A DNA stretch of 64,000 nucleotides, from contig NC_063188.1 in the NCBI RefSeq assembly GCF_023159225.1, forward strand, positions 37,066,021 to 37,130,020. Reading direction: 5' to 3'. The position numbers were made by a program, and so were the translations under genes. Below, one piece after another: positions 1 to 61,806 of this stretch. This DNA comes from Perognathus longimembris pacificus. Taxonomy: Eukaryota; Chordata; Mammalia; Rodentia; Heteromyidae. The notes under the pieces were generated by a model. It saw nothing but the letters and a program-made list of their open reading frames with translations. It was not told the DNA's origin and searched no databases. Numbering within the stretch: position 1 is the stretch's first letter; each line of letters starts with the position of its first letter.

Positions 1-22539
<22,539 letters not shown>

Positions 22540-22784: not shown

Positions 22785-23104
22785 CCCAGGAGGGGAAGGA
22801 CAGCAGGAAGCCGCTCCCCTCGCCCCCTGCTGGAGCGGAGGAAGAACTGAACCCTTGCCTCTGTAGCCCCACATGATTTGGCCCTTGGAGCCCCAGCCTC
22901 TCCCTGCTCCCTAACCCTTGAATCTGGGATTCCAGGCTCAGAGGAGGCGGAAGCGTCTTTGCAGACCTCCGCTGTTTTTCCACTACCGCCTGATTACTAA
23001 ATAGCAAACTGCAGCCCCTTAGAAAAGAGACATTGCCAGAGTCACACCGAGGGTGCATGAGAAAGAGTCCACATGCCCTTATTCCCAGCACACTCAATCA
23101 CCCT

Positions 23105-31063: not shown

Positions 31064-31443
31064 CATATTCAGTTCTAAAAATATACTCGGAGGAACTTGA
31101 CTGCCCTGGGTGTTGAAGTCTCGAACAGCTTTTTTGACATGGTGGTTTAGCTTCTATAAAGAAGGGTAAACACACTCCCAATGCTAAAATTTGAATTAAA
31201 TCACCATAGATGCAAAGAGTGCTTAAATTGTTTTTTTACAGAAATACACTTCCTACTTTGGGTCCACAAATGAACCATAGACCTGAAAAAAATGGTGGGA
31301 TTCCTGGGGTGAGAATGATTCACAACAATCCTGTGAAAAATACAGTCCTTCATTAGAACAAACGACTGTACATACAGTCCTTCATAAGCATAAGGGACTA
31401 TCCTATGCTGACAGGTACAAACACTGTCATTTGCAAAATATTG

Positions 31444-31553
31444 CCAAGAGCCAGTGGCTCATACCTTTACTGCACAGAAAGTGAAGTCCTTGAGACTCAT
31501 CTTCAATTAATCACCAGAAAGCCAGAAATAGAGTTGTGTTTCAACTGGTAGAG
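31444..31553 (+). repeat. B1-Geo SINE, left piece of a split copy
   Basis: AGCCAGTGGCTCATACCTTT to CAACTGGTAGAGC. The sequence resumes at about 32171 after a ~617-bp foreign segment. Confidence 0.6.
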
Positions 31554-32170
31554 CCGAGAGAGGTGGTTGGTGGTGGGTTATGTTTGCCCACCTGGCCTAA
31601 CTCAGCTTCCAGGGATCACTGCTAACACCTTTGGGATCCCCAGAGCAGGAGTGGCAGGGGAAGGGAGGGTGGGTCCTTGCCCCCCCCATCACTGTCCCAG
31701 GTGTCCAAGCTGCACAGCTGACTCTTGGTTCCTACAGAATGTGTATGAAACACCTGGTTCAGTAATGGCTTTCTCACCTCTTGGATAGTTTTCATCTCAT
31801 TCATGTAGAGCTACATGGGTTGTGAAGGGGACTATGGCTTCTTCCTGCTGGGCAGCCTGTGTGTGGCATGGAACAGGACCTCCTACACTGTGGGCCTGGC
31901 CTCACTGCAGAGACCTATCCAGCTTGTCACTGGGGGGCCTGGCCACAGACGTGAGGGCCTTGCTGCCTGCCAGCCTGCTCTAGGCTTGTCCCCGCTGAGC
32001 CTCTACGTGGGCCAGCTAGAGCTGAAAGCCGAAGGAATAAGCCCTGCCTAAGGTTGGAATGAAGCAAGCTGTCTACCACTTGAGTAAGGCACAGGGTGAG
32101 GACTGGCTGGGTGCTGGACAGCCCATGCCGAAGCACTGGGACTTTAAAACCTGAACCTTTGCCGGCCCAT
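31554..32170. other. Unidentified ~617-bp insert inside a SINE
   Basis: This segment is richer in G+C than its neighbours and splits a B1-Geo SINE in its right half. It has no poly(A), no TG...CA ends and no clear target duplication. An open frame of 78 codons (31815-32051, plus strand, reading MGCEGDYGFFLLGSLCVAWN at its start) lies in it, but I do not recognise the product and it lacks an upstream open frame. It could be a captured genomic or cDNA piece. Confidence 0.5.
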
Positions 32171-32240
32171 AAAAAGAAACTCTCGGAGATAGTGACCAGG
32201 CCCTGAGTTGAAACCTTAGGAATGGCGCGAAGGAAAAAAT
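32171..32240 (+). repeat. B1-Geo SINE, right piece of a split copy
   Basis: GAAACTCTCGGAGATAGTGA, then CAGGCCCTGAGTTGAAACCT and AGGAATGGCGCGAAGGAAAA: the missing 3' half of the copy that starts at 31444. Confidence 0.6.
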
Positions 32241-32657
32241 ATATAGACTGCGGTGCAAACAGCCCTTCATACACATAAAGGACTAAGTGGTGGTTGGTGC
32301 AAATAAAGTCCTTCATCTATATACAGGATTGTACTGTTCTTGGTGCAAGCAGGCCTATACTATTTGCAGAAAGGACTACTGTGATTGGTACAAAAAAGTG
32401 CCTCATTTACATAGGGTACTTTGGCTCAAAGGCTCCTTCAGCTTCATAAAAGACTTGTGATTGGTGAAGATCTAGTTCATCTGTACTGTGTTTTATGCAA
32501 ACACAGTTCTTCATTTCAATAAGAACTTCACTGTGATTGGTGCAAACACAGTCTTTCATTTGTATACATGACTATACTGTTGTTTGGATAGTTGCATGTT
32601 CATACAGAACCGTGCTATGATTGGTGCATATATAATCCTTCATCTGCATAAAGAAAT

Positions 32658-32898
32658 GTGCTTTTATTTTTAGCCAGTCCTGGGCCTTGAACTCTGGGCT
32701 TGGGCACTGTCCCTGAGCTTCTTTTTACTAAAGCTAGCAGTCTGCCACTTTAGCCACCATTACACTTCCAGCTTTATATTTTGGTAATTTATTGGAGATA
32801 AGATTTTCACAGACATTCCTATACTGGCTTCGAACCACAATCCTCAGATTGCCTCCTGAGTAGCTAGGATTACAGGTGTGAGCTACTGGTGTCAGGCT
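32658..32898 (-). repeat. B1-Geo SINE, reverse, in the array
   Basis: AGCCAGTCCTGGGCCTTGAA to TTACAGGTGTGAGCTACTGG, inserted between two array units. Confidence 0.75.
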
Positions 32899-33139
32899 CT
32901 ACTATGCTTTTTGCAAACCGTCCATCATTTGCAAAAATGTATAGCCTCTGACTGCTACAAACAATCCTACATCTCTCCAAGGCAGAATATTATGTTTGGT
33001 GCAAATACAGACTTTCACTTCATAATGGTCTGTACTGTGATTGGTACAAATAAAGTCCCTCATTTACATAAGGAGTGTACATTTTGGGTGCAAAATGATC
33101 TTTTTTTTCCATAAAGGACTGCACTATTGTAATAACCTG

Positions 33140-33690
33140 AGGGGGGGGGCGGGAAGCCCATGCCCCACGTTGAGGGGACCAGGACAGGTACCATCACCAT
33201 CACCATCACCACTACCACCACCATCACCACTACCACCACCACCACCCCGACTGCAGGCGGCTGGCCGGGGGATATAAGAGGGTGGGATTTCCGGGAGAAA
33301 GGGGAAAAGGTACGGAAAAAAGCAAGGTGCCAGGAGGGTCCTCATGGAGCTGAGGAGTGCCTGGGTTCCCCTCAAGCCTGAGGGGAGCCTGGGCCTGCAT
33401 ACAGAAGAGGCCCAACCCCGGGCCTGGAGATGGAGGAGGCCTGAGTCCAGACCTGTGGTGCGAAAAGGCCTGAGCCCAGGCCTGCCAGACGAGCGGCGCA
33501 GGGAAGCCTGAGTCCGAGCCTGCAGAGAATGGAGGCCGGAGCGGCCTAGCTCTGGGCAGGAAGAGAGAAGAGGCCTGCAGAGCCGAGGCCTGCTGAGAGC
33601 CAGAGGCCTGAGGAGAGGGGACAGAGTGGAGCAGACCAGAGCTGAGGCAAGCCAGGCCCGCAGAGGAGTAGAGCAGAGCCTGAGGCGTGT
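33140..33690 (+). repeat. GC-rich module A of the array, with TATA-like box
   Basis: Starts near GTTGAGGGGACC (33169-33180), contains a CCATCA/CCACCA run (33185-33248), then CTGCAGGCGG, GATATAAGAGGGTGGG (TATAAG at 33273-33278) and GGGATTTCC. It ends in many AGGCCTGAG-type short repeats. The same order recurs at 35207-35435 and, inverted, at 35445-35737. Inserted between ordinary array units, so it is a second component of the array. Confidence 0.75.
33185..33248. repeat. (CCATCA)n / (CCA)n microsatellite
   Basis: ACCATCACCATCACCATCAC followed by CCA repeats. It corresponds to the much shorter CCACCACCCCC of the second module, so it expanded in module A only. Confidence 0.85.
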
Positions 33691-33814
33691 GAAAGAGCTT
33701 AAAGTACTTTAGTATGCTTAGTCTGAATAATCCTGCACAAAGAATTGTACAGTTAGTAGTACAAACACAGCCCTTCCTAAAAGATTATATTGTGGTTCAA
33801 ATACATATATTGTG

Positions 33815-34283
33815 TGTGTATTGGTCATGGAGCTTGAACTCAGGGTCCCAGCTCTGCTTTTCCCTCAAGGCTAGCACTCTAACACTTTGGGCCACAGCAC
33901 CACTTCCAGTTTTCTCCTGATTAATTGGAGATAGGAGTCTACCATATTTTCCAGCCAGGGCAGGCTTTAAAATGTAATCCTCAGCTCTCAGCCTTCTTAG
34001 TAGCTAGGATTACAGGTGTGAGCCACTGGTGCCCAGAAATGAGACTCTCCAATCAACTACTTAGACAAAGCCAGAAGTGGTGCCAGCTTCTCCAGTGGAA
34101 GAGTGCTAGCTTTGTACAAAAGCAGGTCAAGGACAATACCCAGGCCCTGAGTTCCTGAGTTCAAGCCTCAGGAATGGCAAAAAAAAGTCTCAGGGGCTTT
34201 TCTGTACATGCTGGCTTCCAACTATAATCTTCAGATGTCAGCCTCCTTAGTAGCCAGAATCATGAGCCACTGGCATCTTGCTT
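33815..34283. repeat. Three B1-Geo SINE pieces (-,+,-) nested in the array
   Basis: 33815-34036 is a reverse copy (GGAGCTTGAACTCAGGGTCC to GTGTGAGCCACTGGTGCCCA). 34037-34186 is a forward 3' part (CAAAGCCAGAAGTGGTGCCA, CAGGCCCTGAGTTCC). 34187-34283 is the left part of a reverse copy. The middle piece probably jumped into the third, which fits a nested insertion. Confidence 0.6.
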
Positions 34284-34849
34284 GTAATATTTGGAGTGAA
34301 AACACAATCCTTAATTTGCAAAAAGAAAGAACCAGACTGTTAGGTACAAACAGTCCATCTTCATAAAGCTAGTGTTTCTCAGATTCAGCCTTTCATCTGC
34401 ATCAAGGATTACATTATGTTTAGTACAAACGTTGCTTCATTTGCATAAAGTAATATACCGTGATTGATACACACAGTCCTTCCTTTGCATAAAGGATAGT
34501 GCATTGAGCACTTTCCCTTCATGAAGGATCTAACTCGTGCAAACATTCTTTCACATGTCCCTCGTTTGCATAAAGGTTTGAATTTGTGTTTTATACAGTC
34601 CATTTGCAAAAAGGACTGTTCTATGTTGGATGCATAGTTCTTCATCTTCACAACAGACTGCACTTATTCCTTTATCTGCTTAAATGACTGTATGATGCTC
34701 GATTTAAATAGTCCTTTTGCAAAAAAGAATGTACTCTGACTGGTACAGTCCTATTTTGCATAGAGTACTGTAATATAATGGGTGCAAACTTTTTTTTGTA
34801 CTTACAAAAAAAGACTGTACTGTGTTGTGTAAAAGCTCTCTCCATCTTT

Positions 34850-35092
34850 TTTTTTAACTTTTTGCCAGTCCTGGGGCTTGAACTCTGTGCCTTGGCATTG
34901 TCCCTGAGCTTCTTTTGCTCATGGCTAGTACTCAACCACTTGAGCAATGGCACCACCACTTATGAATTTTTTGAGTATTTTATTGGAGATAAGAGCCTCA
35001 TAGACTTTTCTGCCGGGGATGGCTTCAAATTGCAAGCCTCAGATCTCACCCTCCTGAGTAAGATTATAGGCATGGGCCACGGGCACCCAGCT
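34850..35092 (-). repeat. B1-Geo SINE, reverse, in the array
   Basis: GCCAGTCCTGGGGCTTGAAC to GGCCACGGGCACCCAGCTTC; one of the better preserved reverse copies. Confidence 0.75.
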
Positions 35093-35206
35093 TCAAACTT
35101 TTGATCGCCTTAAGTTAACACACTGTGATAGGTCAGTTTCATTCATTCATCTGCATAAAGGACTTTACTGTGATTGGCAGAAACACAATCCTTCATATGC
35201 ATAAAG

Positions 35207-35737
35207 TGAGGGGACCGAACCACCACCCCCAGCCTGCAGGCAGCCGGGAGATATAAGAGGGTGGGATTTCCAGGAAAAGAAAAGAGAGGCACAGGGAAAG
35301 CAAGGCCCCCGGTGGTGCCTCGTGGAGCTGAGCTGTGCCCGAGTTCCCCTCAGGCCTGAGGGGAGCCCGGGACTGCGGACAGGAAAGGTGCAGCCTAGGC
35401 CTGTGGACAGAGGAGGCCCGAGCCCGGGATTCCACTTTGCACGTGGTTCGCCATGGGCCTCCGCTCTCCACGGGCCTCCGCACCGCTCTCTGTGTCTGCT
35501 CCTCTGTCCACTCTCCTCAGGCCTCGGCTTTACAGGCCTCTCCTCGCTTCAGGCCCAGGGCTAGGCCTCTCCGGCCTTCATTCTCTGCAGGCCCAGACTT
35601 GGGGCTCCCTGCGCCACTAGTCTGGGTTCGGGCCTCCACCATCTGCAGCACTGGGCTTTTCTCCTCCCGGAAGTCCCCGCCCTCTTCTATGCCTGGGCTG
35701 CCTGCAGGCTGGAGATGGTGGTTCTGGTCCCCTCAAT
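35207..35737. repeat. GC-rich module B: head-to-head inverted duplication
   Basis: The left arm (35207 to about 35435) repeats module A in forward order: TGAGGGGACC, CCTGCAGGCAGCCGGGAG, ATATAAGAGGGTGGG and GGGATTTCC. The right arm (about 35445-35737) is the same module reversed: its complement reads TTGAGGGGACCAGAACCACC, AGCCTGCAGGCAGCCCAGG, ATAGAAGAGGGCGGGGACTT and TGCAGAGAATGAAGGCCGGA, matching module A closely. The axis lies near 35440. The TATA-like box is kept in the forward arm and changed to CATAGAAG in the reverse arm. Confidence 0.75.
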
Positions 35738-36014
35738 GTGGGGCAGGATCTTCTTTTAAGCTCCTTAGTGGGGAGGGGCTGCTCGCCCCCCCCCCTGCCC
35801 CCAGCACTCTGAAAGCCTCGGGACTTGGGCCTCTCCACAGGCTCGGTCCTCTTCCTTCTGCAGGCCAGGGCCTGAGGAGAGCTCAGGCACTGCTTGAGGA
35901 GTTGTCTCCTGCTGCCTTCCTTTCTCTGTGTCTCTCTCCCCCTCCCTTCCCTAACCCCAGCCTTCTAGAAACCCATAGCCAGTGCCCCGCCCCGCCCCCA
36001 CCCCACCAAGCACC

Positions 36015-36225
36015 TCCCCAGCAGCAGGGCGGCATGGTGGTGACCTCAGCTTAGGGCCTGAGCCCCCCCCCCTTTGATGCCCCAGGAGGTCCTTCCCACC
36101 AACTAGCCCCCCAGAGGGAGGGTATGGCCGTGACCTCTGCTTAGGGCCTGAACCCCCTTTGACACCCGCTCCCCAAACAGGGTGGTGTGGTAGTGAAGTC
36201 AGCGCAGGGTGGTGCTTCCCGCCTC
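36015..36225 (+). repeat. Three-copy GC-rich subrepeat at the end of module B
   Basis: Three related stretches at about 36020-36062, 36112-36151 and 36176-36212, each a purine-rich GGG block followed by TGGTGGTGACCTCAGCTTAG or a close variant, spaced by 60-90 bp. Bounded on the right by an array unit (AAAAGGACTGTACTGTGATT). Confidence 0.55.
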
Positions 36226-36439
36226 TCAAAAGGACTGTACTGTGATTGGCAGAAATAGTCCTTCATTTGCATAGACCTACTCCATTCCATTCATATTGCT
36301 AGTCGTTATTCTCCCTATAGACACTGTGATAGGTCAGACACATTCTTTCATCTGCATAATAAACTTTACTGTGAATGGCAGAAAAAGTCCTTCATTTTCA
36401 TAGCTATTATATTTATGTTTGTAGAAACAACATTTTTAT

Positions 36440-36638
36440 ATTTTTGTCAGCCCTGATGCTTGAACTCAGGGCCTGAGCACTGTCCCTGGATTCTTTTTGC
36501 TCAAGGCTAGCACTCTATCACATGAGCCACAGCACCACTTCCGTTTTTGTTTTTCTGTATATGTGGTACTGAGGAATCGAACCCAGATCTTCATGTATGC
36601 TAGGCAAGCACTCTAACACTAGGCCACATTCCAAGCCT
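36440..36638 (-). repeat. IDL-Geo SINE, reverse, in the array
   Basis: GTCAGCCCTGATGCTTGAAC to GGCCACATTCCAAGCC; several substitutions, so older than the 39650 copy. Confidence 0.8.
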
Positions 36639-36677
36639 TCCCCTCCAGTCCCTACCTCCCCCCCCCCCCCCCGCGCC

Positions 36678-36900
36678 TTTTTTTTTTTTTTGGCCTGGTC
36701 CTGGGGCTTCAACTCTAGCCTGTGAACTGTCCCTGAGCTTCCTTTTGCTCAATGCTAGCACCACATCTAGCTTTCTCTTAGTAGTTTATTGGTGATAAGA
36801 GTCTCACAGACCTCATGCCCAGGCTGGCTTCGAGCCACATTTATCAGATCTCAGCTTCCAGAGTAGGTAAGATTACAGGCATGAGCCACAGGCACCCAGC
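36678..36900 (-). repeat. B1-Geo SINE, reverse, next to a C16 run
   Basis: A run of Cs (36657-36672) and a T run precede GGCCTGGTCCTGGGGCTTCA; it ends CACAGGCACCCAGC. Confidence 0.7.
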
Positions 36901-37404
36901 TTCAAACTGTCTTTCAAGTCCTTAAAGGACTGCATTGCGATAGGTCAAAATAATCCCTTCATTTGTATAAAGCAGTTTGCTGTAATTGGCAGAAACAGTC
37001 TTTCAACTGCTTACACCTAATATTGGTAGTCTTTTATTTCCGTAAAGAATTACACTGTGATAGGTCAGATTCAACACTTCACCTCCATAAAGGACTTTAC
37101 TGTGATGGGCAGAAACACAGTCCTATATTTGCATAGACTTACTGTATTGTATTCATGTTGGTACAAACTCCTTTCTTCTCTGTAAAGGCCTGCACTGTGG
37201 TAGGTCAGACTCAGCCTCTCATCTGTACAAAGTACTTTACTGTGATTGGCAGAAACACAGTCCTTCCTTTGCATAGAGCAACTGTACTATATTATTCATC
37301 TTCATAAATAACTGTATTCTAATGGCTGTAAACATAGTCTTCCATCTTCATATGTCTTTACCTGTGTTTGATGCAGTCCATCATCTTAAAGAACTGCAAG
37401 GTTT

Positions 37405-37622
37405 GTTGTTGTTGTTACTGTTGTGAGGTTTTATCTCAGGGCCTGGGCACTGTTCCTGAGCTATTTTACTGAAGGTTAGCACTCCACCACTTCAGCTACA
37501 GCTACCCTTCCATGTTAGGTGGGTGATTGGAGAGAAGAAACTCAGGGACTTTCCTGCTATGATCCTCAGATCTCAGCCTCCTGCTTAGCTAGGATTACAG
37601 TCTTTAGCCACCACTCCAGGGC
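37405..37622 (-). repeat. B1-Geo SINE, reverse, in the array
   Basis: Begins with a GTT repeat, then TCAGGGCCTGGGCACTGTTC; ends TTAGCCACCACTCCAGGGC. Confidence 0.65.
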
Positions 37623-37658
37623 AGACTGCAATTTTACAGGTACAAACATTTCACTTCA

Positions 37659-39649
37659 CCTAGCGATCAACCTAACCAAAGACGTGACGGACCTATTTAA
37701 TGAGAACTATAAAAATCTAATAAGGGAAATCAAAGAAGACACAAGGAGATGGAAAGACCTCCCATGCTCATGGGTAGGCAGAATCAATATAGTGAAAATG
37801 GCCATATTGCCCAAATTGTTATACAAATTCAATGCAATCCCCATCAAAATCCCAGCTACATTCTTCACTGAAATAGAGAAAGCAACCCATAAATTCATAT
37901 GGAACAGCAGAAGACCTAGAATAGCCAAAGCAATTCTAGGCAAAAAAAGCAATGCAGGAGGTATCACAATACCAGACTTCAAGCTCTACCATGGAGCCAT
38001 CATAACAAAAACAGCCTGGTATTGGTATAAAAACAGACCAGAAGACCAATGGATTAGAATTGAAGATCCAGAAATAAAACCGCACTTTTACAGTCAGCTG
38101 ATATTCGACAAAGGAGCTAAAGACATACAATGGAATAAACCTAGCCTCTTCAACTACTGGTGCTGGGAGAACTGGGCAGCCATATGCAGAAAACTCAAGG
38201 TGGACCCAAGCCTATCACCATGCACCAAGATCAACTCAAAATGGATCAAGGACCTCAACATCAGACCTGAATCCTTGAAACTACTGAAGGACAGAGTAGG
38301 AAAGACACTAGAACTTATAGGCACAGGAAGGAACTTCCTGAATAGAGTCCCAGGGGCACAACAAATAGGGGAAAGACTTGACAAATGGGACTACTACAAA
38401 TTAAAAAGTTTCTGCACAGCTAAGGACATAGCCACCAAAATAGAAAGACAGCCAACCATATGGGAAAGGATCTTTGCCAGCACAGCAACAGACAAAGGCC
38501 TAATATCTGTCATCTACAGAGAACTCTAAAAACTAAGCCCTGCCAAGCCCAGTAAGCCAATTAGGAAATGGGCAAAGGAGCTAAAGAGAGACTTCACAAG
38601 AGAAGAGATAAAAATGGCAAAGAAACATATGAGTAAATGTTCAACATCCCTGGCAGTAAAGGAAATGCAAATAAAAACAACCCTGAGATACCACCTCACT
38701 CTAGTTAGAGTGGCCTATACTCTGAACTCAGGCAACAACAAATGCTGGAGGGGCTGTGGGGAAAGAGGAACCCTTCTCCACTGTTGGTGGGAGTGCAAAT
38801 TAGTACAACCACTTTGGAGAACAGTATAGAGATTTCTCAAAAAGCTCAACATAGACCTACCCTATGACCCAGCCATACCACTCCTAGGCATCTAGCCTGA
38901 ACAACAGGTCCCAAGATATCAAAAAGAATTTTGCACTTCCATGTTTATCGCTGCACAATTCACAATAGCCAAAATATGGAAACAACCCAGATGCCCCTCC
39001 ACAGATGAATGGACCCAAAAAATATGGTACCTATACACAATGGAATATTACATAGCGATTAGAAACGATGAAATATTGTTATTCGCAGGGAAATGGTCAG
39101 AACTTGAACAAATAATGTTGAGCGAGACAAGCCTAGAACACAGAAAACAAAGGGGCATGATCTCCTTGATATATGACTGTTAAGGAGAGGGAAGGGGGAG
39201 ACAGTAGAGACCAGGTTTGTGAAACCAAAAACTTCTTGGCAAATGGTATTTCCCACAGGTGTAGGTCGAGGACCCTACATTATTTATCCAAAACCAAACA
39301 ACTACTCAACATATAAAGGTCAAAAATTGACCTCTCAGTGGATCACAATAGCTCAAAAGCTATGTATGTACGTTCATATAAGACTATTGTTGACATATTG
39401 TCTACTGTCAACATTACATTTAAAGCCCTAGACGAATTTTCTTTGGCGTAGGCCACGTGGCTACTGTATATGTTCTTGGTACACTGTGTATTATATATAT
39501 GTCTACCTGACCTAGGGAAGGGAAAGAAAAACAGGGTGTAAGATATCACAAGAAATGTACACACTGCACTCCTATGTAACTGTACCCCTGTGCACAACAC
39601 CTTGTCAAAAATTTGTGTTTAATTAATAACGTATAAAAAAAAAATTCAC
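37659..39649 (+). mobile_element. L1, 5' truncated, with full-length 3' UTR, in the array
   Basis: Starts within ORF2 after array sequence TTTCACTTCA; a matching ATTCACTTCA follows the poly(A) and inserted SINE at about 39857, giving a ~10-bp duplication. It has the complete 3' UTR (about 39184-39637) that the 12.7-kb copy lacks in part. It is oriented like the array units. Confidence 0.9.
37664..39183 (+). pseudogene. L1 ORF2 C-terminal fragment with stops
   Basis: The frame reads [20 protein letters not shown] through to SVIYREL, where TAA at 38527 breaks it. Further TAG codons follow near 38826 and 38894 before the normal ORF2 end at 39183. It lacks the reverse transcriptase core, so only the thumb and C-terminal region are present. 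At matched codons it is very close to the 12.7-kb copy (for example the [20 protein letters not shown] stretch is identical). Confidence 0.9.
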
Positions 39650-39850
39650 GGGCTGGGGATATAGCCTAGTGGCAAGAGTGCCTGCCTCGGATACACGAGG
39701 CCCTAGGTTCGATTCCCCAGCACCACATATACAGAAAACGGCCAGAAGCGGCGCTGTGGCTCAAGTGGCAGAGTGCTAGCCTTGAGCGGGAAGAAGCCAG
39801 GGACAGTGCTTAAGCCCTGAGTCCAAGGCCCAGGACTGGCCAAAAAAAAA
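39650..39850 (+). repeat. IDL-Geo SINE, young subfamily, inserted in L1 tail
   Basis: Landed in the poly(A)/duplication region of the L1: AAAAAAATTCAC lies before it and after its A tail. Same diagnostic bases as the 5325, 47537 and 56351 copies (GGATACACGAGGCCCTAGG, GAGCGGGAAG). Confidence 0.93.
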
Positions 39851-39910
39851 AAAAAAATTCACTTCATCTGAATGAACGACTGTACTATTATGCAAACAGA
39901 ACTTTTTGTT

Positions 39911-40123
39911 TTTGTTTTTGTTTTTTGTTTTATGCCAATCCTAGGGCTTGAACTCAGGGCTTGAGCACTGTCCCTGGCTTCTTTTTGCTCAAGGATAGAA
40001 CTCTATCACTTGAGCCACAGCGCAACTTCCAGCTTTTTCTATGTATATGGTGCTGAGGAATCGAACCCAGGGCTTCATGTATACAAGGCAAGCACTTTAC
40101 CACTAGGCCATAATCCCAGTCCC
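39911..40123 (-). repeat. IDL-Geo SINE, reverse, in the array
   Basis: TGCCAATCCTAGGGCTTGAA to CCATAATCCCAGTCCCC, with CAGAACTTTTT on both sides as target duplication. Confidence 0.88.
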
Positions 40124-40494
40124 CAGAACTTTTTATTTGCGGATAGAATATACTAGGGTTGGTGTGAACACAGCCCTTCATTTGCATAACTGTTGTGATT
40201 GCTGCAAATATACTTCTTTATTTGTATCATTTTCTATGGTTGGTATAGTCTACATGCCCCTTTTCTGACTATAAGCTGGATGTTTTATTTTTCTTTCAAG
40301 TAAGTTGGAAGACACCCTCATGGGTTTGCTCCTAGTGTATAACGTGTGTCTTCCTTATCACCACATATATCTACAACATTAAACCTTATTTTTCACTGGA
40401 TAGTTCCTCTAGTTATAATATGGATTACGTAGAGGTGAAGAATTTGCCAAGAACAAAAGGGAGACCAGTCTCTAGCATTTGTGAGATTTAATTA

Positions 40495-40680
40495 GTTTTC
40501 AAAAGGTGGGAAGGTGGGGGTGAGGCAGGGGTATCCAGCTGAGTGGTTTGGGATGTCTTACTCACTAGACATTATGTTGGAATTGAACTGTACAACTTAG
40601 GTTGGGGGTGGTAGAGGGGGAAGATTGGTAATAATGAGAGAGAGGATAACACTGTTCAAAAAGTAGTGTACTCGCTGGTG
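40495..40680 (+). repeat. L1 3' UTR fragment, old
   Basis: A GGTGGGAAGGTGGGGGTGAG tract, then ACACTGTTCAAAAAGTAGTG; same older subfamily as the piece at 2925. Confidence 0.5.
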
Positions 40681-40681
40681 G

Positions 40682-40897
40682 TTCACACCTGTTATCCTAC
40701 CTGCTGAGGAGGTTGAGATATGAGGATAGTGGTTCAAAGCCACTGGGGCAGGGAAGTCCCTTTGAGACTCATCTCCAATTAACCACTCAAAAATGTAAAG
40801 TGGCGCTATGCCTCAAAATGTCTGTAGAGTGCTAGCCTTGAGCAAAAGAGCTCAGGAATAGTAGTGCCCAGGCCCATGACCAACCAAAAAAAAAAAA
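40682..40897 (+). repeat. B1-Geo SINE
   Basis: GGTGGTTCACACCTGTTATC to CAGGCCCATGACCAACC plus A12; the right half has a duplicated CTCAAAATG-like segment. Confidence 0.75.
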
Positions 40898-40937
40898 GGG
40901 GGGGGGGAGACCTCGGGGTAACACCTTTACAATATTT

Positions 40938-41158
40938 CTTTTTGTCGGTCTTGGGACATGAACTGTGGGCTTAGGTCCCAGAGCTGAAGTCTAGCGCTCT
41001 ACCGCTTGAGCCACAGCGCCACTTTCGGCTGGTTGTTGATTAATTGGACATAATACTCTCACAGACTTTCCTGCCCGGGCTGGCTTTGAACCGTCATCCT
41101 CAGATCTCAGCCTTCTGAGTAGCTAGGATTACAGGCATGAGCCACTGGCGCTCCGGGT
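40938..41158 (-). repeat. B1-Geo SINE, reverse
   Basis: GTCGGTCTTGGGACATGAAC to GAGCCACTGGCGCTCCGGG; head-to-head with the previous SINE. Confidence 0.75.
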
Positions 41159-41234
41159 ATTTTTTTTTAATCTTATTTCTGAAATGTCCTAGGCACTGGC
41201 CATCCTGTTCGTGTAAGTCCCTGGACATGAAGTT

Positions 41235-41665
41235 TGGCTCTGACTCCAAACATTTGCTCCCTCTTCCCTCCTGAGCCCACTTGGCATTCCCGCCCTCCCT
41301 CTTCAGTTCCTGGGCCCCCTGTGTGCTCCCACGCTCTGTCTGGGCTCCAGTATTCCCTCTTCATTTCCCGGGCCCCCTCATTTTTTGGCTTCCAGGCTCC
41401 CACTTGGCTCTTCTTCTCCCTCCTCGCTCCCGCGCCCCCTCTGCTGCTCCCAGACTCCCTGTTAGGCTCCCAGGATCCTTCTCTGGCTACCAGGCTCCCT
41501 CTTCCACTCTTGTGCTCACTTTGCTCTTCAGCTACGTTTTAGGCTCCCTCTTCACTCCGAGGCTCCTCCCTTGTTCCCACACTATGCAACTCCCTGTTGG
41601 CTTCTGGGTCCCCTCTTCGTCCTCATGCTCCCTCGTAGCTCAGGGCTCTCAAGCAGCAGCCGGCT
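41235..41665. repeat. CT-rich minisatellite-like GC module
   Basis: Repeated cores GGCTCCC, GGGCCCCCT and CTCCCTCTTC recur at irregular 20-40-bp spacing. It reads open in two frames simply because it is repetitive and stop-poor. It lies between the forward and reverse parts of the 46-bp array. Confidence 0.6.
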
Positions 41666-41879
41666 GCAGGGGAAGGGGGGACGGTCCCGGTAAAGGAAGT
41701 ACAGTGGTAAGGTCTGCATTTAGGGGGATGGAGGGCAAGGGGCTTGGTCCCAGGAGGAACTCCCCTGATTACCAACCTGGTGGGAAAGGCTCACAAGGAT
41801 CAACACCCAGGAGTGACTGATTATGAAATGCTCAGGTGTATGGTACACGGAGGACCCCAGGGTCGCAAGTGTATTTGAA

Positions 41880-42140
41880 GTGCCAATCCTAGTACATCCT
41901 TTATGCAAATGAAGGACTATATGTGCACCAATCACAACACAATCCTTTATGAAGCTAAAGAACAGCACCACAGTAGTTAGTCCTTTATGCAAATAAAGGA
42001 TTATGTTTGCACCATTCTCAGTACAGTCTTTTTGCAAATGAAAGATTATATTTGCACCAATCACAATGTAGTCCTTTATGACAACAAAGGGCTGCAGCAC
42101 ATTGTAGTCCTTTATTCAAATGAAGGACTGTGTTTGCCCC
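41880..42140 (-). repeat. Reverse-oriented segment of the 46-bp array
   Basis: About five consecutive units run on the minus strand: CCTTTATGCAAATGAAGGAC, GTGCACCAATCACAA, then repeats with ATGCAAATAAAGG and TTGCACCAATCACAATG. Two exact reverse octamers are at 41903-41910 and 41987-41994. These are among the best preserved units. Confidence 0.8.
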
Positions 42141-42192
42141 ACTGGGCCACCAGCTAAAGTTGTCCCTCATCTGGATGAAAATGCGTGCTATA

Positions 42193-50237: not shown

Positions 50238-50250
50238 CCACTAGGTGGCA
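50238..50250 (+). promoter_or_regulatory. Consensus CTCF core motif
   Basis: CCACTAGGTGGCA matches the core CCASYAGRKGGC at every position, orientation plus. It stands in sequence that I cannot assign to a repeat, just right of an L1 relic. Occupancy is inferred only. Confidence 0.6.
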
Positions 50251-58182: not shown

Positions 58183-58259
58183 TGTGTTTTCGTCCTTTTG
58201 TATTGTTATAATTGTTTTGTTTTTTTGTAGCCTTTTGGACTGAACATCTGATCAGAGCT

Positions 58260-58592
58260 ATGGGTAACGTTCTATCATGGGAACCTCCATCTAGCCCCCT
58301 AGACTCGATCCTAGCTCACTGGAAGGAGGTTAAGGAGATAGCTCAGAACCAAAGTGTGGCCCGTAAGAAGGAAAAGTGGATCACCCTGTGCAAGTCAGAA
58401 TGGCCCACCTTTAAGGGAACTAATTGGCCACTCGAGGGAAGCTTTGACATAGGTAAGATCAGGACTTTGCAACGCCTAAAAATCTACACCCCTCATTTGG
58501 GCCATCCATACAAAAGAGAAACCAAGATGGGTTTTACTAAGACTATAAAGCCCTGGAAAATGAGGCTGGAGAATGCTAAAATCATTTGTTAA
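58260..58592 (+). pseudogene. gag remnant (matrix part) of the provirus
   Basis: A 110-codon frame starts with Met-Gly-Asn, so Gly2 could be myristoylated, as in gammaretroviral matrix proteins. Residues around WKEVKEIAQNQSV and WPTFKGTNWP show the matrix pattern. It ends at a TAA at 58590 after losing family similarity, well before capsid. Downstream no long frame continues it, so the protein is truncated and presumably non-functional. Confidence 0.8.
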
Positions 58593-61261: not shown

Positions 61262-61336
61262 GATATAGAATATAGATATAGAATATAGATATAAAATATA
61301 GATATAGAATATAGATATAGAATATAGACAAAGAAT
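61262..61336. repeat. (ATAGATATAGAAT)n minisatellite
   Basis: Five or six units of about 13 bp inside the proviral interior. Confidence 0.85.
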
Positions 61337-61806
61337 AGTTGGCTTATGATAGTTGGCTCTGGTCTGGCTTCTTAGGATCAGCAGTCCCATTGGACTGACC
61401 ATCGCCCCCTCTTTGTCTTCCCCAACAGCCTGTGGGTGGAGTTACAGTAAATTGCCTTGATGTAGTTGAGATAAACCGGAAAATGTAGACAGTTTAAAAC
61501 TCTAGCAGCAAAGAAGCCCCAGGAAATATAAAGAGGAAGGTTAGTATAGAAATCCTTGGAGAAAGGAATAGAGAAATGGTTTCCTCTGGATAAGAAAGGG
61601 ATTTAAAAAGTAAATTGTCACAGAACGTTCCAGTAAGTCACTGATGGTTTGAGGAAGTAGAAGATGGTGTGAGTGGGGATATGTTAAATTTTATAAAACA
61701 CAGATTATAAAACTGTATAAGGAAAGACTTTAGAGAGAGAAAACAAAAATGTTTCCTTTACATTAAAAGGTTTTGGCATGTTAAAGGTGAGAAAGGCAAT
61801 CCCTAT

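Follow-up and report, generated by a model that had tools for sequence, protein, structure and literature searches.

A decayed 46-bp octamer-CCAAT tandem array near FAM199X in Perognathus longimembris pacificus, probably a dead expansion of a dispersed repeat

A 64,000-nucleotide stretch of mammalian DNA from Perognathus longimembris pacificus (assembly GCF_023159225.1, contig NC_063188.1, positions 37,066,021 to 37,130,020; hereafter the window) contains an array of degenerate 46-bp units, each derived from a consensus that pairs an inverted CCAAT box with an octamer. The array is probably dead, and it probably arose upstream of FAM199X when the CCAAT/octamer repeats carried by an old dispersed element, itself likely to have been of the long terminal repeat (LTR) type, multiplied locally. 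For the most part the array is thus ordinary: a worn-out enhancer-type repeat.

Structure and extent of the array

The limits of the array are 31,338-42,141, close to those given in a preliminary description of this DNA, which had reported tens of degenerate units of about 46 bp in a shared order at 31,310-42,150. Profile refinement, seeded with the unit from that description, left the consensus GGACTGTACTGTGATTGG-TGCAAACACAGTCC-TTCATTTGCATAAA unchanged through eight rounds. As had been proposed, the consensus unit carries an inverted CCAAT box (GATTGG, NF-Y type), located 17 bp before the POU-type octamer ATTTGCAT; it contains no CpG. Its inverted arms (GGACTGT/ACAGTCC) are 7 bp long inside one unit and 9 bp with the neighbouring unit.

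Wraparound alignment of the unit scored 380 at 32,252-33,125 (where the path runs across a short interspersed nuclear element, SINE), 263 at 36,906-37,293 and 250 on the minus strand at 41,883-42,141. The highest score in the rest of the window was 37, and none of 12 dinucleotide shuffles went above 35. In repeating a single unit head to tail more than chance would allow, the array resembles a satellite or minisatellite. Tandem Repeats Finder, the check suggested in the preliminary description, reported no such 46-bp array when run on the window.

About 50 unit-equivalents were recognised (71 pieces, 2,275 aligned letters), or 54 when fragments scoring 12-24 are included; 40 pieces are near-complete, with at least 36 of the 46 positions, and these have a mean identity to the consensus of 76.6%. 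Recognisable units occupy approximately 2.3-2.5 kb of the 10.8-kb array, and the remainder comprises GC-rich modules, 11 SINE-type insertions, an L1 (approximately 37,658-39,640) and sequence that could be assigned to none of these. The unit blocks between 31,338 and 40,248 are on the plus strand, except for three fragments scoring below 15, and the final block (41,880-42,141) is inverted. The features are listed below with the basis of each assignment; insertions are given without strand, and SINE-type insertions were recognised by matches elsewhere in the window.

31,338-31,438, plus: first decayed block of 46-bp units (wraparound alignment)
32,252-32,658, plus: unit block, start of the top-scoring run (unit alignment and profile)
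32,659-32,897: SINE-type insertion
32,900-33,130, plus: unit block resuming after the SINE (unit profile)
33,135-33,695, plus: GC-rich module M1 with TATA-like GATATAAGAGGG (TATAAG at 33,273-33,278) (self-alignment with M2 and M3)
33,697-33,797, plus: unit fragments (unit alignment and profile)
33,811-34,282: two SINE-type insertions
34,296-34,843, plus: decayed unit block with an exact octamer at 34,439 (unit profile)
34,845-35,095: SINE-type insertion, resembling 36,745-36,997 together with the units that follow it (also self-alignment)
35,121-35,206, plus: two units, separated from the TATA-like box of M2 by about 45 bp (unit profile)
35,207-35,440, plus: GC-rich module M2 with TATA-like GATATAAGAGGG (TATAAG at 35,252-35,257) (self-alignment)
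35,441-35,780, minus: GC-rich module M3, inverted, with the TATA-like box altered to CATAGAAG (self-alignment)
36,229-36,402, plus: unit block with an intact GATTGG and ATTTGCAT pair at 36,244-36,272, the exact octamer being at 36,265 (unit profile)
36,425-36,913: two SINE-type insertions
36,914-37,376, plus: unit block with a 140-bp, three-unit period (36,914-37,293) and an exact octamer at 37,127 (unit profile and self-alignment)
37,402-37,637: SINE-type insertion
37,658-39,858: L1 fragment (by eye) with a SINE in its tail (39,651-39,853)
39,862-40,248, plus: unit remnants split by a SINE (39,894-40,138), with an exact octamer at 40,180 (unit profile)
40,673-41,170: two SINE-type insertions (40,673-40,899 and 40,935-41,170)
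41,170-41,875, minus: GC-rich module M4, composed of degenerate tandem repeats of about 20 bp, adjoining the inverted block (repeat finding and self-comparison)
41,880-42,141, minus: inverted unit block with exact octamers at 41,903 and 41,987 and an intact pair at 41,903-41,933 (unit alignment and profile)

The three-unit higher-order period at 36.9-37.3 kb has a self-match of 0.53 at lag 140, and its two copies are 77% identical; neither this period nor the inversion of the final block figured in the preliminary description. The SINE and following units at 34,940-35,185 resemble those at 36,745-36,997 (72% over 254 positions), which suggests that a piece was duplicated after the SINE had entered, although there may have been two independent insertions.

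Decay of the units

The units decay as unselected DNA does, with no detectable constraint. The preliminary description had considered a regulatory or structural satellite possible, and had named as evidence against its reading, in advance, a lack of excess conservation of the octamer and CCAAT positions; mean conservation over positions proved to be 0.766 for the motifs and 0.766 for the rest of the unit (Mann-Whitney p = 0.97), and on that count the regulatory reading fails. Counted over letters, conservation is 0.783 for the octamer, 0.747 for the CCAAT box and 0.766 for other positions, with bootstrap 95% intervals for the difference from other positions of -0.020 to +0.055 for the octamer and -0.075 to +0.033 for the CCAAT box. 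Among 46 windows along the unit, the octamer ranks 19th and the CCAAT hexamer 30th, or 32nd and 20th, respectively, after correction for base identity. The third octamer position is among the least conserved in the unit: of 57 units, 30 have T there and 22 have C.

Six exact octamers are present in the units (34,439, 36,265, 37,127 and 40,180 on the plus strand; 41,903 and 41,987 on the minus strand), the number to which the preliminary description had drawn attention, but 6.4 would be expected from independent positions, which lends the survivors no special meaning. Of the 32 units long enough to include the octamer and the CCAAT box, only 2 retain the two intact (Fisher p = 1.0 for co-retention). 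The inverted arms, although present in the consensus, show no sign of being maintained: Watson-Crick pairs number 147, compared with 148.7 in shuffled arms, and a second possible hairpin has 224, compared with 227.6. Compensatory changes (9 versus 9.8 and 12 versus 10.7 shuffled) show no excess that would indicate a hairpin, a cruciform or a structured RNA. Functional constraint on the motifs, the arms or their co-retention was rejected, given equal conservation, no excess of joint retention and pairing at the shuffled level.

Adjacent units (similarity of 0.629 at lag 1) are no more alike than units at lags of at least 12 (0.635), indicating that homogenisation has stopped, a small peak at lag 3 aside. 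Changes from G/C to A/T occurred at 0.273 per site, more than twofold the rate of the reverse changes (0.117).

Age relative to insertions

The units differ from their consensus by 23.4%, whereas one SINE family, represented by 22 long copies in the window, differs from its own by a mean of 7.5% and a maximum of 14.4% outside CpG sites; the three copies of this family inside the array have values of 0.072, 0.104 and 0.129. The divergence of the units is approximately three times the mean of the dated family and 1.6 times that of its most diverged copy, in agreement with invasion of the array by that family. This dating covers the one family; among the other eight SINE-type insertions of the array, some pairs are only 70-79% alike. 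The account of an array that is old and into which at least ten SINEs and an L1 have inserted is borne out by the 11 SINE-type insertions, the L1 and the greater divergence of the units.

Dispersed relatives on other contigs

The minus-strand translation of the consensus, with the unit written twice, was searched against 5.8 billion predicted proteins. Eight open reading frames (ORFs) matched at E values up to 10, the best being P0016 (5.8e-11), and a profile built from six of these gave 30 matches at E values up to 1, consisting of the six themselves and 24 new ones; P0020 and P0021 were not recovered. The resulting 32 family ORFs come from JGI (27), Logan alone (3) and ENA (2). With three mismatches allowed, the unit is read as ANEGLCLHQS (frame a) in 20 of the 32 and as MQMKDCVCTNH (frame b) in 19; one or the other is present in 31 ORFs, and both are present in 8, indicating that the same DNA is read in two ways, a pattern not expected of a repeat in a protein.

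The family has a common core of about 33 bp in fixed order, and its 16 core-to-core spacings comprise ten of 43-46 nt, one of 92 and five of 65-72. A flank like APLLAWVKM is found in 12 of the 32 ORFs, and an opposite flank like PFIGPNVATPG in seven (P0018, P0022, P0023, P0024, P0025, P0027 and P0030, of which P0023 and P0024 are near-copies). On sequence evidence, the unit is part of a dispersed repeat, of which each ORF shows between one and four recognised units, and the contigs that bear these ORFs are presumably animal host DNA. The earlier suggestion of a satellite specific to this lineage appears doubtful, with units of the same core, spacing and shared flanks on other public contigs.

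Some scans with the core as a DNA pattern gave no locus, and others found one locus in a viral collection (L001) and four prokaryote loci (L002-L005), all of which look like chance matches: that of L001 lies inside a long frame resembling a bacterial transporter (by eye), and L002-L005 have unit-profile scores of 21.6-30.8 in one or two short stretches each. A related-loci search with A1 matched 10 stretches, none of which was confirmed. A putative 7SL-type SINE beside P0045 was dropped, since it scored 17.7 bits and one of 30 shuffled controls reached 24.3. A text search of the literature found no publication on the unit sequence, on such an array or on a FAM199X-linked tandem repeat.

Origin of the array

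Under the explanation preferred here, an ancestral dispersed element, most likely of the LTR type, would have contained a short tandem series of repeats, about 44-46 bp in length, whose CCAAT box and octamer may have been bound by NF-Y and POU proteins. One copy, probably on the X chromosome upstream of FAM199X, would have grown by unequal exchange to some tens of units, with GC-rich, TATA-like modules lying among them, and part of the array would have been inverted. Homogenisation would then have ended, and the units would have diverged independently without detectable constraint and been fragmented by SINEs and an L1, leaving an array that is presumably inactive at present.

It is possible, but unlikely, that the array is instead an independent satellite, derived from single-copy DNA of this chromosome, and that related sequence gave rise separately to the dispersed family. 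In favour of such an origin, the flanks of the array in the window have no clear match to the family flanks, and comparisons within the window found no counterpart of modules M1-M4 beyond the array region. Against it, what the array and the family share is a core of some 33 bp in fixed order with spacings of about 46 nt, which goes beyond two motifs of 6-8 bp.

Several observations weigh against descent of a dead array from an LTR-type family. Matches reached an E value of 1e-3 in only 3 of 8 cases in the first translated search and in only 9 of the 24 new profile matches, and because the searches used words of the unit, conservation of the unit among the ORFs is biased and cannot argue for a conserved core. 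Pfam searches of 18 of the 32 family ORFs gave nothing above cut-offs and only three matches below them. Of five array edges compared with the APLLAWVKM flank, that at 42,142 had p = 0.016 (0.08 after correction) and the others had p = 0.044, 0.081, 0.62 and 0.95, and tblastn of the 32 ORFs against the window gave 1,394 rows, the best 70 of which include no flank that clearly matches; homology of flanks between the window and the family appears only suggestive. LTR ends, a primer-binding site or a retroviral gene were not seen beside the units, no search aimed at LTR ends or primer sites having been made. As to decay, the test used would miss motif positions conserved above the rest by less than about 0.05, and GATTGG is found 10 times compared with 7.4 expected (a slight excess common to several neighbouring 6-mers). 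Some late local duplication is indicated by the 140-bp period and by the small rise in similarity to 0.659 at lag 3.

The closest known arrangement is the U3 region of LTR12, in which, according to the available text, 5-17 repeats of about 41 nt carry CCAAT boxes for NF-Y and the start site lies downstream (PMC11853044). The array and the family ORFs are like these ERV9/LTR12 U3 enhancer repeats (E elements) in having short tandem units with CCAAT, but LTR12 units pair CCAAT with GATA and MZF1, and that text mentions no octamer; the likeness is one of description (PMC11853044). In Lathyrus sativus, LTR retrotransposons are described as the source of satellites: the dispersed elements contain short tandem arrays, which were occasionally lengthened, as proposed here, although this is a plant, and the expansion is placed mainly in the primary constrictions (PMC7004042).

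If the family is of the LTR type, the octamer with CCAAT would be a second motif combination among LTR tandem-repeat enhancers such as LTR12, and one such enhancer repeat would have grown into a small satellite on a mammalian chromosome, probably the X. The array is also a worked case of striking motif content that looks inherited rather than functional, motif survival having matched neutral decay.

GC-rich modules and the question of present activity

Modules M1-M3 carry versions of TGAGGGGACCAGAACCACC and GATATAAGAGGGTGGGATTTCC; M1 aligns with M2 (74% over 211 positions) and with M3 (83% over 115), whereas M4 matched only itself within the window. M1 and M2 have an intact TATA-like box, placed after units in both, whereas that of M3 is altered. 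The arrangement in M2, where about 45 bp separate the last unit from the box, has the look of a putative promoter preceded by enhancer repeats.

A function of the array is unlikely. That POU2F1 or POU5F1 and NF-Y still bind the surviving motifs, so that the array drives or enhances transcription of FAM199X or its neighbours from start sites in M1 and M2, is improbable, even though the TATA-like box follows units in M2, two intact GATTGG-octamer pairs remain where 100 shuffles gave none, and the window contains 10 exact octamers compared with 4.6 by shuffling (a number reached in 3 of 100 shuffles). Neither preferential conservation, co-retention nor pairing was detected, the intact pairs are confined to 2 of 32 units, the ratio of observed to expected CpG, taken in 500-bp windows from 31 to 43 kb, is low throughout (0.04-0.51), and the survivors match what decay from such a consensus predicts. 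A bolder version, in which the array would be an ancient X-linked octamer-CCAAT enhancer present upstream of FAM199X in many mammals, its few intact pairs and TATA-like modules still being read by POU and NF-Y proteins in germ cells or the early embryo, is very improbable.

Genomic setting

An exon of FAM199X was identified at 1,318-1,695 on the minus strand (Pfam PF15814, E = 1.6e-30). FAM199X is X-linked in mammals, and with this neighbour the chromosome of the array is probably the X. On the same strand, the ORF at 22,135-22,533, which sits inside a GC-rich stretch and had no match in Pfam, presumably represents the N-terminus of FAM199X, which it resembles; if so, the array is located approximately 9-20 kb upstream of the first FAM199X coding exon.

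Histone H2B promoters contain an octamer and a CCAAT box in the same order as the array unit, and human testis H2B genes are located near FAM199X in the same region of the X. The array might accordingly be regarded as a remnant of an H2B-type promoter multiplied in tandem, a link raised in the preliminary description, but the chance of this is slight. No histone was apparent in the window's 37 ORFs of 90 amino acids or longer, and none was found in the 9 that were Pfam-scanned, intact frames being considered; the link finds no support there. Unlike H2B promoters, the array has its motifs in a tandem 46-bp repeat with a shared core longer than the motif pair, and this core recurs on other contigs with flanks that are not histone-like. 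The title of a 2004 study cited in PMC8857922 places a testis H2B gene on the human X; the main text of PMC8857922 does not name FAM199X, and no paper was found that names both FAM199X and H2BFWT.

Least probable of all is a structural repeat of the X like DXZ4 or FIRRE, which would bind CTCF within the array. The array is tandem and probably on the X, as such a repeat would be, but with up to one mismatch to the CTCF consensus as generally known, no CTCF-like site was found within 31-42.2 kb, and a CTCF array was rejected. The whole window has 3 such matches compared with 1.5 by chance. Matches with zero mismatches are located at 22,821-22,833, in the GC-rich stretch near the supposed 5' end of FAM199X, and at 50,238-50,250.

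The BEX/TCEAL/ARMCX cluster of the eutherian X is also close to FAM199X. Its genes share a non-coding promoter motif, BGW, which differs from the array unit, as far as descriptions can be compared, in its length of about 60 bp, its internal E-box and its position in gene promoters, and which the available text does not describe as tandem (PMC7586669).

Other features of the window lie outside the array, and no Rfam family was above threshold anywhere in the window. An intronless frame of 116 amino acids at 43,268-43,618 matches ribosomal protein L26 (PF16906, E = 9.5e-29), presumably without the usual N-terminus, and is probably a retropseudogene. A frame of 126 amino acids with a Gag_MA retroviral matrix domain (PF01140, E = 6.4e-18) at 58,212-58,592, 16 kb from the array, is a remnant of an endogenous retrovirus. 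A frame of 740 amino acids at 12,777-14,999 resembles L1 ORF2 (by eye), and a clean 13-bp tandem repeat, GATATAGAATATA, is present in 5.8 copies with 93% matches at 61,262-61,337.

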